DNA of 64,000 bases from Acinetobacter sp. LoGeW2-3 (lineage in GTDB: Bacteria; Pseudomonadota; Gammaproteobacteria; Pseudomonadales; Moraxellaceae): NCBI RefSeq assembly GCF_002688565.1, contig NZ_CP024011.1:2170001-2234000 (forward strand), given 5' to 3'. The position numbers were made by a program, and so were the translations under genes. Below are positions 59,394-63,208 of the stretch, piece by piece. Below the pieces are notes generated by a model. The model saw only the letters and a list, made by a program, of their open reading frames with translations. It made no database searches and was not told the DNA's origin. The stretch's first letter is position 1; every line of letters starts with the position of its first letter.

Positions 59394-60158
59394 ATGCGCA
59401 CCTTATACCAGTTTCCTTTATCACATTTTTGTGAAAAAGCACGTTGGATGCTTGATCATAAAGAACTGGAATATGTCGCACAAAACTTAATGCCGGGTGC
59501 TCATCGTGCTTTTGCTCGCCTCAAGACTGGACAAAATCGTCTGCCGATTCTGCGTGATAGGGAAAAGTGGATTGCAGATTCGACGCAAATTGCACTATAT
59601 CTGGATGAAAATTATCCTGAACATCGTTTACTGCCAGCAGAAGGGCGTTTACGCGAGAAAGTGTTGGAAATTGATGGAATGACTCAAGAACTGGGACGTC
59701 ATGTTCGTCGCTGGATGTTGGCCCAAGCTTTATCCTATGATCATGAATCGATGGAGATCCTGATTGGTGAAAAAGGCTATCTGCGCCAGTTCGAAAAATT
59801 CTCCAAGCCTTTGCTCAAAACCATTCTCAGTAAAGGTTATGCCTTGACTGAAGATACACTTGCTCAGTCGCGAGAATATATTAAAGAAACCGTTGAACAA
59901 CTGAATCAGATATTAACCGAGAATAACGGTGCTTATATTGCTGGTTCACGTTTTAGTCTGGCGGATATTGCAGTCTGTTCGATGTTGGCACCTTTGCTCG
60001 CGATTCCGGGTACACCGTGGGAGCGGGACAGTTTTGAATCTATGTCAGATGAATATCGGGATTATCAAACCTATCTGTCTGAATTGCCTTTAGGTCAATA
60101 TATTAACGATATCTATCGTCATGAACGCAATGCTCGTGTCGATTGGCGCGGTGTATAA
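59394..60158 (+). CDS. Glutathione S-transferase family protein
   Basis: 254 residues, start supported by AGGAG five bases before ATG 59394. N-terminal thioredoxin-like domain with Q-F-P-L-S-H-F-C-E-K-A-R-W near 5-17 (cysteine at 12), the cis-Pro R-L-P-I-L near 49-53 and D-S-T-Q-I near 62-66. The helical C-terminal domain extends to about 250, longer than the usual 200-220, with F-S-L-A-D-I-A near 184-190. Function may be detoxification or stress; the ligand is not certain. Confidence 0.85.
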   Translation: MRTLYQFPLSHFCEKARWMLDHKELEYVAQNLMPGAHRAFARLKTGQNRLPILRDREKWIADSTQIALYLDENYPEHRLLPAEGRLREKVLEIDGMTQELGRHVRRWMLAQALSYDHESMEILIGEKGYLRQFEKFSKPLLKTILSKGYALTEDTLAQSREYIKETVEQLNQILTENNGAYIAGSRFSLADIAVCSMLAPLLAIPGTPWERDSFESMSDEYRDYQTYLSELPLGQYINDIYRHERNARVDWRGV

Positions 60159-60173
60159 GTCAAAATGTGAAAT

Positions 60174-60202
60174 AAAAAAACGCGCTTGAAGCGCGTTTTT
60201 TT
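60174..60202. terminator. Bidirectional terminator
   Basis: AAAAAAACGCGCTT then GAAGCGCGTTTTTTT; stops the GST gene and the repeat protein gene. Confidence 0.9.
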
Positions 60203-60214
60203 ATGAGATTAAGG

Positions 60215-62380
60215 TCACCCCCAAGGATTAGTATGATCAACATCACTCTGTTTGTTGAAGCTACTGAAGAGTGAGCTAAAGTCAAACTTCGGTAATGAAC
60301 TACCGCTCGAGATGTTGGAAATTTTATCTTTAATGCTTGGAATGATTTCAGTAATACTGATATTCGAACTAGTATTGGTATTGCCAATACCAGAAATCAA
60401 TTCACTCACATCAGGCAACTGTAGAGTCGAGTTTTCACCGATTAAATTGCCAAGACTATCTGTAAATGCATCCAGACCTAGACCATCTCCCAAGCTAGGT
60501 ACGCCAGAACCGAGTGATCCGAGCAAGTCACCAATTTCAGGTAATTGAACACCATCCAGAATATCTGAGAATTGACCTTCACTATCAATAAGGGCAATAA
60601 TTGGTTTCAATGCGGTAATCACATTGTTGATGTCACCGGATAAATTAAGCAGTGATGGGCTGCTGACAAAATCGAGTACCACTTGAACGCCATTCAGGAC
60701 ATCGTAAAGCGTATTTACGATTTCTGCTTGATCAGTATCAAGAACATCACTATTCGCTAACAGATTCAACAGTGGATTCACACCTTTTAGTACATCCGCG
60801 ATGGTTTCAGGAATATTACCTGAACCAGCAGAACTGATTGCAGATACTAATGTCGTGACACTACCTACAACTGTTGGTAAAACCTGAGTGAGTTGTGCCA
60901 TATCAATGGATGAATTGCCTGTATCGATAGAGGCAAGCAGCGACATCAGACTTTGCGTTACCGTTTGCGCAATTGTGCCTGCATCGATACTGCCTGAATT
61001 ACTGATTAGGCCACTGAGTAAATTGGTAATTGCACTGATATCAAGATCACTTGTTGCATTGCTCATTAAGTCAGTTGCTAGCAAATTAACAGAGTTAGTA
61101 TCTAAGGCACCCGTAGAGCCACTGATCAAGCCGCTCACCAAGTCAATAATTGCGCCAATGTCGAGATCGCTACCGGCATTACCACCAATGAGACCACCTA
61201 CAAGGTTGGCAATTTGACCGATATCCACGCCATTGAGACCGCCAGAACCACCAATTAAGCCACCAACTAATTCAGCAATTTGAGCGATATCGATATCTCC
61301 ATTACCGCCAATCAGATTGCCTACTAAACCTGCGATTGCACCAATATCAACACCACCGAGACCGCTAGATCCACCGATTAGACCGCCAACCAGTTGAGCA
61401 ATTTGAGCGATATCAATATCACCGTTACCACCAATCAGGTTGCCGACCAAACCTGCGATTGCACCAATATCAATGCCATCAAGACCACCAGAGCCGCCAA
61501 TTAAACCGCCAACCAGTTGAGCAATTTGTGCGATATCAATATCACCACCTTGGATCAAGCCACCAACTAATCCTGCGATTGCGCCAATATTAACACCACC
61601 GAGACCGCTAGAACCACCGATTAAGCCACCGACCAATTGTGCGATCTGAGCGATATCGATGTCGCCATTACCGCTAATCAAGTTACCAACTAATCCTGCG
61701 ATTGCACCAATATCAACACCACCGAGACCGCCAGAGCCGCCGATTAAACCGCCAACGAGCTGAGCGATTTGAGCGATATCAATATCACCGCCTTGAATCA
61801 GACTACCAACAACGCCAGCAATTGCACTGATATCAACACCATCGAGACCACCAGAACCACCGATCAGGCCGCCAATGAGTTGTGTAATTTGTGTGAGATC
61901 AATGTCACCACTTTGCAGAAGGTTGCCGGCCAGATCAGCAATTTTTCCGAGATCTAAATTACCTGAGCTGCCACCAATTAATCCACTGACCAATTTGATC
62001 ACGGCATTTAAATCTAGGTTTGATGTATTGCCACCCATTAAACCGCCAAGCAGATTACTGATCGAACCTAGATCAAAACTGCCACCATTAGCTTTCGTCA
62101 GTTGGCTAATTAAACTATTGATATCGAGTTTAGACGCATTTGAACCGGTGAATTGGGTAATTAAATCCGTGAGGGAGCTGGAAGTTAAACTTTTACCTGA
62201 AAGTAAGCTAGTTAAGAGGGAATCGAGGGAAGGCGTAGAGGGGGTAGAACCTGTAATAGATCCAATGATGCCAGAAAGACTGCCACTCAATAAACCGCTA
62301 AGTAAATTCGTGTTTTGTGTCTCTGTCGTGAGCACTGGACTGAGTTTACTTTTAATTGAACTAAGAAGACTGAAAGCCAT
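60215..62380 (-). CDS. Glycine-rich protein with 20 degenerate 20-residue repeats
   Basis: ATG 62380 is preferred, as AAGGA lies six bases upstream; ATG 62386 would touch the ribosome site. The 721 residues have no signal peptide and no cysteine in the repeat part. From about 82 to 480 there are about 20 units with pattern G-x-x-D-I-x-x-I-A-x-L-V-G-x-L-I-G-G, spaced 17-23 residues. The central units alternate between D-I-D-I-A-Q-I-A-Q and V-D-I-G-A-I-A-G, a double unit of about 41. Each looks like an amphipathic helix ended by a Gly turn; basic and aromatic residues are almost absent. The last 240 residues are less regular and end D-H-T-N-P-W-G. No family that I recognise. Confidence 0.8.
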   Translation of the reverse strand: MAFSLLSSIKSKLSPVLTTETQNTNLLSGLLSGSLSGIIGSITGSTPSTPSLDSLLTSLLSGKSLTSSSLTDLITQFTGSNASKLDINSLISQLTKANGGSFDLGSISNLLGGLMGGNTSNLDLNAVIKLVSGLIGGSSGNLDLGKIADLAGNLLQSGDIDLTQITQLIGGLIGGSGGLDGVDISAIAGVVGSLIQGGDIDIAQIAQLVGGLIGGSGGLGGVDIGAIAGLVGNLISGNGDIDIAQIAQLVGGLIGGSSGLGGVNIGAIAGLVGGLIQGGDIDIAQIAQLVGGLIGGSGGLDGIDIGAIAGLVGNLIGGNGDIDIAQIAQLVGGLIGGSSGLGGVDIGAIAGLVGNLIGGNGDIDIAQIAELVGGLIGGSGGLNGVDIGQIANLVGGLIGGNAGSDLDIGAIIDLVSGLISGSTGALDTNSVNLLATDLMSNATSDLDISAITNLLSGLISNSGSIDAGTIAQTVTQSLMSLLASIDTGNSSIDMAQLTQVLPTVVGSVTTLVSAISSAGSGNIPETIADVLKGVNPLLNLLANSDVLDTDQAEIVNTLYDVLNGVQVVLDFVSSPSLLNLSGDINNVITALKPIIALIDSEGQFSDILDGVQLPEIGDLLGSLGSGVPSLGDGLGLDAFTDSLGNLIGENSTLQLPDVSELISGIGNTNTSSNISITEIIPSIKDKISNISSGSSLPKFDFSSLFSSFNKQSDVDHTNPWG
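61183..61900 (-). repeat. Tandem coding repeats, about 120-123 bases
   Basis: The six central double units of the repeat protein are nearly identical in protein and similar in DNA, for example the recurrent block encoding I-A-Q-L-V-G-G-L-I-G-G. Lengths alternate (units of 18-19 and 22-23 codons), consistent with recent duplication of a two-unit module. Copy number is probably variable between strains. Confidence 0.8.
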
Positions 62381-62737
62381 AACCATTCCTTGCGTTTTTT
62401 ATCTTGTTTTGATTATTTTGTTTTTAAATAAACGCTCAATTTTTATTCAATTTTTATACAAGTGTAAATTCAAGTATGAATAATCACATTTCGAAAACAG
62501 TATGATTAGACGGACTATGGTTTTGGAAAAATTAATTCATTATAAATAATAAGGATTTGTTAAATATTTACGTTTATCTAAAATGTAGTTTATTCGACGA
62601 ATGACCATCAAGCTGACTTAAAGCCTTGTAAATCCTTATCTGGTATTATTTTTCAATTAACTAGTAATTTATGAAAAAAATATCAATACTATGCGTAGAA
62701 TAATTATGTATTTTAATAAAGCGGCCAGAGATTAAAG
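62381..62737. other. Divergent spacer between repeat-protein gene and Lrp-type gene
   Basis: 357 AT-rich bases with no credible frame. It holds a perfect tandem 11-base repeat, TCAATTTTTAT twice, at 62436-62457, one DNA turn apart, on the repeat-gene side. Confidence 0.6.
62436..62457. repeat. Tandem 11-base direct repeat upstream of the repeat-protein gene
   Basis: Two adjacent copies of TCAATTTTTAT. The period of one helical turn would put two bound proteins on the same DNA face. A slipped A/T tract is the simple alternative. Confidence 0.5.
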
Positions 62738-63208
62738 ATGGAATTAGATCGTTTTGATAAGCATATTCTTGAAATTTTGACCCATGAAGATGTCAATCTG
62801 AATGAACTCTCTGAACGGGTAAATCTTTCAGTCAGTTCGGTCCATCGCCGTATTAAGCAATTGATTGATCATAATATTATTAGCGGCTTGAAAAGAGAAA
62901 TTAATTATCAAAAGCTAGGTTTTAGTCTGCATGTGTTGTTACAGGTATCTTTGAGCAAGCATGACAGTGATACTTTTGCCAAATTTCTGGGCGAGCTGGA
63001 AAGTATTCCTGAAGTGATTAATGCTTTTCTGGTGACAGGGCAGTCGGCAGATTTTATTGTAGAAGTGGTTGCACGTGATATGGAAAACTATAGTGAGATC
63101 TTGCTCAACAAGATTGGTAAAATTGAACATGTGGTCGCACTGCACTCTAGTTTCGTAATTAAAGAATATAATGTTTTTAACTGTAGCGGCTTACTCAATA
63201 AAGTTTAA
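62738..63208 (+). CDS. Lrp/AsnC-family transcriptional regulator
   Basis: 156 residues. Helix-turn-helix at about 5-50 (D-K-H-I-L-E-I-L near the start, L-N-E-L-S-E-R-V-N-L-S-V-S-S-V-H-R-R-I), then the RAM/AsnC ligand domain at about 65-150 with V-L-L-Q-V-S-L and the F-L-V-T-G-Q-S-A-D-F segment, where Lrp has V-T-G-x-x-D-Y/F. Effector is probably an amino acid. Divergent from the repeat protein gene; no transport gene on its own strand. Confidence 0.88.
   Translation: MELDRFDKHILEILTHEDVNLNELSERVNLSVSSVHRRIKQLIDHNIISGLKREINYQKLGFSLHVLLQVSLSKHDSDTFAKFLGELESIPEVINAFLVTGQSADFIVEVVARDMENYSEILLNKIGKIEHVVALHSSFVIKEYNVFNCSGLLNKV

Follow-up and report, generated by a model that had tools for sequence, protein, structure and literature searches.

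The gene at 60,215-62,380 (minus strand) of the window, by which we mean the whole 64,000-nucleotide stretch of the Acinetobacter sp. LoGeW2-3 genome that was analysed, encodes a 721-residue glycine-rich protein of amphipathic repeats (family I), identified by its frame, its orthologues and the purifying selection acting on it. The protein is real and selected, helical-amphipathic by sequence, variable in array length and co-occurring with a T1SS. Our tentative reading, held with slightly less than even confidence, is that it is an accessory Acinetobacter protein that may leave the cell by an LssB-type T1SS, without a Sec signal peptide, and would have an extracellular role at a surface or in a film. 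The LssB-type system would export the chain with no need of a Sec signal peptide; once outside, the protein would be a string of short amphipathic helices, whose face of isoleucine, leucine and valine would attach to hydrophobic surfaces or interfaces, or to adjacent chains, while the glycine-rich links would allow the chain to spread out into a film.

The repeat protein and its predicted helices

One open frame runs through 60,215-62,386 (minus strand), with 723 codons counted from its first ATG. Four aligned relatives carry ACG or GCG at this position and their frame begins at the second ATG, which in the window's gene has an AGGA 6 nt to its 5' side. Because the first ATG is absent from these relatives, we place the start at 62,380, giving the 721 residues of the original prediction. 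The whole protein contains no cysteine, 14 basic residues (13 lysines, one histidine and no arginine) and 12 aromatic residues. Residues 111-460 comprise 26% glycine, two basic residues and no aromatic residue or cysteine, which bears out the claim that the array is nearly devoid of basic and aromatic residues; also as claimed, no Sec signal peptide is recognizable by eye.

The conserved head, which begins MAFSLLSSIKSKLSPVL and shows no Sec signal peptide by eye (62,057-62,380, minus strand; defined by alignment, dN/dS and AlphaFold), leads into the array (61,097-62,074, minus strand; defined by unit count, AlphaFold and a tandem DNA repeat), where 16 units of 18-22 residues on the pattern DIxxIAxLVGxLIGG are each predicted to form one helix. 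A conserved middle with longer helices follows (60,557-60,985, minus strand; residues about 468-610), defined by alignments and AlphaFold and held in common with a subfamily of about 430 residues. The C-terminal tail region (60,218-60,529, minus strand; residues 620-723), recognized from its conserved ends, finishes in DVDHTNPWG and is a candidate secretion signal. The 16 units are consecutive, with starts 18-22 residues apart, mostly 18 or 19 alternating with 22, and span about residues 105-430 in the 723-residue numbering; one further unit lies 40 residues beyond the run. At the DNA level, Tandem Repeats Finder reports 5.7 copies of a 123-nt (41-residue) period at 61,217-61,909/61,910. The regular repeats of alternating length are thus as first described, while the proposed size of about 20 units over 400 residues was slightly high, the regular part being 16 units over about 325 residues.

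Across the 14-residue unit cores, the mean hydrophobic moment exceeds that of shuffled sequences at 100 degrees (z 7.1) and 110 degrees (z 7.8) and falls below it at 160-180 degrees, and the array units are therefore helix rather than strand. Repeated short amphipathic helices had been proposed from the sequence; the moment supports them, and AlphaFold agrees at low confidence. With 24 alignment rows, the AlphaFold model of the window protein (mean pLDDT 47, pTM 0.25) makes each unit one helix of 12-14 residues, separated from the next by glycine-rich links, and places a helix at residues 2-15 of the head, all at low confidence; the middle region has the highest pLDDT of the chain, about 50-66, and the model contains no strand of at least three residues and no confident packing. 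A sister protein of about 430 residues, modelled with 12 rows, is likewise predicted at low confidence to be all-helical (mean pLDDT 43, pTM 0.27). The structure prediction suggested by the original note thus returned one helix per unit and no confident fold; the models agree with short amphipathic helices.

The main rival to T1SS export takes the protein as a helical scaffold of the cytoplasm or envelope, in which the 41-residue double unit would form a two-helix solenoid for binding a partner, the T1SS co-occurrence being a product of lineage history. We consider this reading doubtful. The regular alternation of 18/19 and 22 spacings and the helix predicted in each unit suit such a scaffold; however, neither AlphaFold model contains a confident solenoid (a point of little weight, given the shallow alignments), the number of units varies, and the locus holds no partner gene apart from its two flanks.

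Locus, distribution and selection

The repeat gene lies between two synteny anchors, a GST-like gene (59,394-60,158, plus strand) and a divergent Lrp/AsnC-type regulator (62,738-63,208, plus strand). The presence of an Lrp-type gene beside the repeat gene, noted at the outset, was thus correct; a role for it as dedicated regulator is not supported. Because the Lrp gene occurs in 147 of 149 genomes, with or without the repeat gene, the shared divergent region is no evidence for dedicated Lrp regulation. A promoter-like TTTACA ... AAAAAT (62,439-62,468, minus strand) falls in a block conserved across five aligned genomes, and the promoter-like patterns in the scan (nine found, 9.4 expected from shuffles) are not above chance. 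At the other end of the gene, an inverted repeat, ACGCGC-TTGAA-GCGCGT, flanked by A and T runs (60,173-60,203), was read directly from the sequence, the scanner not having listed it; it is likely a bidirectional terminator between the convergent GST and repeat genes.

In all 27 carriers of family I, the gene sits between the GST-like and Lrp-type genes, with the flanks 1599-2583 bp apart. The table of genomes with both flanks on one contig and strand, drawn from part of the rows, comprises 113 genomes, these 27 and 86 others; in 62 of the 86 the flanks are at most 595 bp apart. Nine wider slots without a family I gene were inspected and held other genes or no clear gene, with a remnant of the repeat gene in G018. 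By eye, the slots of six loci (L043, L045, L046, L047, L048 and L049) contain unrelated genes, such as an amino-acid ABC transporter and a porin-like gene, and the slot may be prone to insertions. Apart from the two flanks, which are kept with or without the repeat gene, it showed no partner gene. In G043 (L055:2043-3005), two frames that resemble an IS30-type transposase, one of them with an HTH_38 domain, stand between the head of the repeat gene and the flank. A mobile origin of the gene itself is not supported, with no match in phage and plasmid collections and a single orthologous slot in the 27 carriers.

Among the 149 Acinetobacter genomes, 39 match the repeat gene at an E-value of 1e-3, 27 of them with family I and 12 weakly; the ten weak matches examined (all except G057 and G091) are all different genes. 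A family-wide draw of 199 genomes gave ten matches, all in Acinetobacter, one of 16 genera. Named carriers are A. schindleri CIP 107287, A. lwoffii S332-3, A. terrestris ANC 4471, Acinetobacter sp. ANC 4862 and one uncultured Acinetobacter. Protein searches, each scoring about 8000 candidates, returned eight matches to the single sequence and 20 to the profile; those with a named organism were all from Acinetobacter and all annotated as hypothetical protein. No model of Pfam or NCBIfam matches the window protein at E up to 1, and no PHROG does at 0.01; against PDB sequences, a single-sequence query found no match and a 24-row profile three chance-level matches (E 0.15-0.96). Matches of relatives in Pfam, PHROGs and NCBIfam were under the curated cut-offs where these are set, or weak, and were left unused. 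The titles and abstract openings of the literature searched contain no description of the protein. The original view that it belongs to no described family thus held across the Pfam, NCBIfam, PHROG and PDB-sequence searches, and a match to a characterized repeat family, which would have spoken against that view, appeared neither in Pfam nor in NCBIfam nor among PDB sequences.

The family I gene is real and under purifying selection. Over the head (first 150 residues), dN/dS is 0.08-0.15 in seven of eight pairs, the eighth showing no amino-acid change; over the last 100 residues it is 0.08-0.39 in eight of ten pairs, dS being saturated in the other two. Lack of conservation in relatives, named at the start as an outcome that would count against the frame, was not what we saw: the gene occupies one slot in 27 of 149 genomes under purifying selection. 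The frame is intact in 19 of the 27 carriers (383-721 residues) and broken in eight (G115, G112, G089, G117, G041, G002, G043 and G146). Of 25 gene-free sites that were checked, three still carry remnants, which marks some of the absences as losses. These broken frames and remnants could be taken to mark a decaying or neutral low-complexity gene, which we regard as very improbable: dN/dS is well under 1 in the measured pairs, most frames are intact, and head, middle and tail are all conserved.

A comparison of copy number between strains had been suggested, and the array-type frames counted contain 6 to 16 tandem units. Sisters of about 430 residues have none or one, that is, they lack the array. 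An 832-residue frame in G274 (L103:1030-3528) contains both the 430-residue-type helical part and a 20-residue array and, by its sequence, links the two family I subfamilies.

Co-occurrence with the T1SS

As marker of the T1SS we used the LssB-type ABC exporter TIGR03375, which is over cut-off in 119 of the 149 genomes, gives a weaker match in five and none at 1e-100 in 25. LssB is over cut-off in 27 of 27 carriers, and the repeat gene occurs in none of the 30 genomes without LssB over cut-off (one-sided Fisher p 0.0012, uncorrected for kinship); we count this as an argument for T1SS export. In two carriers, G115 and G117, the LssB frame has an internal stop; their repeat genes are both broken, against six broken among the other 25 carriers, though the numbers are small. 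All carriers belong to one clade of 54 genomes, within which genomes with the gene divide into 27 with and none without a T1SS, and those lacking the gene into 13 with and 14 without; the 13 carrier-clade genomes that have a T1SS and no repeat gene weigh against export.

Because related genomes are not independent, we turned to a GST tree and independent pairs. The tree (132 genomes, built by a quick method under LG+G4, with many weakly supported forks) left out 17 of the 149 genomes, none of them carriers. Of eight independent pairs differing in the gene, an average of 4.8 had the T1SS changing with the gene and none had it changing in the opposite direction, with a median p of 0.0625 (range 0.016-0.25); the median is not significant. 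A T6SS control marker, ClpV, which is over cut-off in 85 of the 149 genomes, gave 2.2 changes the same way as the gene and 0.7 the opposite way, and in the carrier clade the association of gene and T6SS is borderline too (p 0.056). The T1SS also tends to change with the T6SS (of 13 pairs, 4.2 agree in direction and 1.0 disagree; median p 0.375), a further point against export. That the repeat gene and the T1SS change together on the tree is therefore suggestive, and the weakening of their association once kinship is considered is among the points in favour of a non-exported scaffold.

A full set of T1SS genes is present in the window's own genome, a point in favour of export: LssB at G000:C1:2964308-2966392 stands in a row with HlyD-type (TIGR01843) and TolC-type (TIGR01844) genes. 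These genes lie about 0.73 Mb from the repeat gene and are unlinked to it, which counts against export; T1SS substrates are commonly, but not necessarily, encoded beside T1SS genes, a placement the repeat gene lacks. According to passages of two papers, Acinetobacter T1SS export RTX and Bap-type proteins (PMC5861075, PMC12912691). The ClpV match over cut-off in the window's own genome (G000:C1:2749588-2751630) covers positions 2-687 of 852 in a 722-residue frame and may be truncated.

The distribution also bears on the original suggestion that the protein coats lipid or wax-ester inclusions. Wax-ester synthase (TIGR02946) occurs in 145 of the 149 genomes, that of the window included, versus 27 of 149 for the repeat gene; inclusions thus do not need the repeat protein, and a general inclusion coat is unlikely. 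A phasin- or perilipin-like coat in the cytoplasm would fit the lack of a signal peptide by eye, the affinity of amphipathic helices for droplet surfaces and the synthase in the window's own genome, but the presence of the gene follows a secretion pump rather than the synthase, and the array is almost without basic residues; we find this reading improbable. The other proposal, a secreted surface film, fits the T1SS co-occurrence better than an inclusion coat does, although the protein's own tail is not adhesin-like and the T1SS target domain TIGR03661 is unmatched. Purifying selection and the helical moment (z about 7) are further points in favour of our main reading.

Analogous families, C-terminal tails and known systems

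The weak matches to the repeat gene proved to be other genes on the same plan, here families II and III. Like family I, they have a MLFKSLLSPIKSITS-type or MIVNILGLITTPLSY-type head, glycine-rich amphipathic units of similar length and a hydrophobic tail; unlike it, they differ in unit sequence and locus. In family II the head is MLFKSLLSPIKSITS and the units, 18 residues long, resemble GGNPLDAVTDIIGGVTGG; family III units resemble GGLTGGLLPLDLVTNLI. The searches made found no description of either, and a Pfam search of one family II protein gave no family. With a family II query at an E-value of 1e-20, matches came from 39 of the 149 genomes, none of them a family I carrier; the count is of II-like arrays, since the match in at least G090 is its family III frame. 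Queries with families II and III found no match in the window's genome at 1e-3. LssB is over cut-off in 37 of the 39 II-like genomes (the exceptions are G024 and G100) and, uncorrected, in 64 of 66 genomes with family I or II versus 55 of the remaining 83. On the GST tree, the median p for family I-or-II is 0.03 to 0.06, but family II alone shows no signal in the pair test with the T1SS; this null result and the two exceptions count against export.

Family II frames reach 1062 residues in L062, L063, L069, L061 and L070, several with the tail LTDHLFSSVNHF. Family III frames in L066/L074:13527-17549, L067 and L068 contain long GGLTGGLLPLDLVTNLI arrays and adhesin-like tails (DNQSSLI, DNQPHLI). 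Very long proteins of GNGNGDD...DNDTTNNSN repeats (L072:4697-10087, L064 and L065) stand beside or are fused with family II-type units. Five loci (L071:7744-9087, L072:2765-4066, L073:11488-12852, L077:2274-3608 and L078:6598-7917) encode a conserved protein of 433-454 residues with a Sec-type N-terminus by eye; it lies upstream of a gene of family II or of the long GNGNGDD type and is a possible partner of that gene.

BapA-type adhesins lie near the T1SS genes in the two carrier genomes looked at. One adhesin beside T1SS genes (L101) has both the BapA prefix domain PF22783 and the T1SS target domain TIGR03661 over cut-off; the BapA-type adhesin close to the T1SS genes of the window's genome falls into several open frames in a repetitive stretch (L100:7074-13942; G000:C1, about 2.973-2.980 Mb). 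TIGR03661 matched neither the window protein (E up to 1) nor the relatives tested, which were of family II, of family III and, in two cases, of family I (E up to 0.1); this counts against T1SS export, and its absence from the window protein in favour of a non-exported scaffold. C-terminal tails were compared through a weight matrix made from 11 of 30 adhesin ends (TLDELLxNxQIIF), hand-picked as in frame and not near-duplicates; L206 and L216, whose in-frame ends extend beyond the motif by a few residues, were left out. When 316 ORF ends were ranked, two adhesins came first, one of them from outside the training set; the next places went, in this order, to two family III ends, one of family II, a short frame of a masked locus, a second family II end and a long GNGNGDD-type protein. 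The tails of families II and III (LTDHLFSSVNHF and VTDHLLDNQSSLI) are thus among the best non-adhesin matches of the 316 and, being adhesin-like, lend support to T1SS export. One family II tail scores moderately (21 of 316 as high), that of the long GNGNGDD type in L079 poorly (equalled by 97 of the 316), and those of two family I sisters (L037, L039) are in the top 12 of 316. The tail of the window protein is at the background median (146 of 316 ORF ends as high) and ends in WG, which speaks against export by this route.

A protein exported by the T1SS could also have another job than film formation, as an adhesin, a bacteriocin-like protein or a host-acting exoprotein. The T1SS evidence applies equally to such cargo, and the BapA-type adhesins near the T1SS genes count in its favour; we nevertheless think it rather unlikely, as no enzymatic, toxin or adhesin domain was found (Pfam, NCBIfam, PHROG) and the repeats are rich in glycine, isoleucine and leucine and almost uncharged except for aspartate.

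Extending the film reading, we speculate, with considerable reserve, that families I, II and III are mutually replacing, T1SS-exported, helical glycine-rich repeat proteins, 'bacterial hydrophobins' that would fold at interfaces, tune surface hydrophobicity through their unit number and perhaps partly explain growth on oils and dry surfaces. If true, the Acinetobacter T1SS would export a class of non-RTX helical repeat proteins, and a testable component would be added to how Acinetobacter meets oil, plastic and air interfaces; with 6 to 16 units between species, length effects are directly testable. Even without export, the gene defines an uncharacterized, selected protein family with a defined locus, found here only in Acinetobacter.

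Among known systems, T1SS exoproteins (RTX proteins and LapA/Bap-type adhesins) resemble the window protein in having glycine- and aspartate-rich repeats and no N-terminal signal peptide by eye, but its repeats are helical 18-22-mers rather than RTX nonapeptides; the calcium-binding nonapeptides GGxGxDxUx are absent from it in Pfam and NCBIfam at E up to 1, and Pfam finds no BapA prefix-like N-terminal domain. According to a passage of PMC8861453, RTX proteins have a C-terminal [FLI][VAI], in place of which the window protein has the WG of its final NPWG. No phasin-type profile in Pfam or NCBIfam matches the protein. With phasins and perilipin/apolipoprotein-type repeats, it has in common repeated amphipathic helices for hydrophobic surfaces; the phasin- and perilipin-type repeats are rich in charged residues. 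Hydrophobins, BslA and chaplins are beta-rich and Sec-exported, whereas the window protein is predicted to be helical and has no signal peptide by eye; the likeness to them is a possible function as an amphipathic film.
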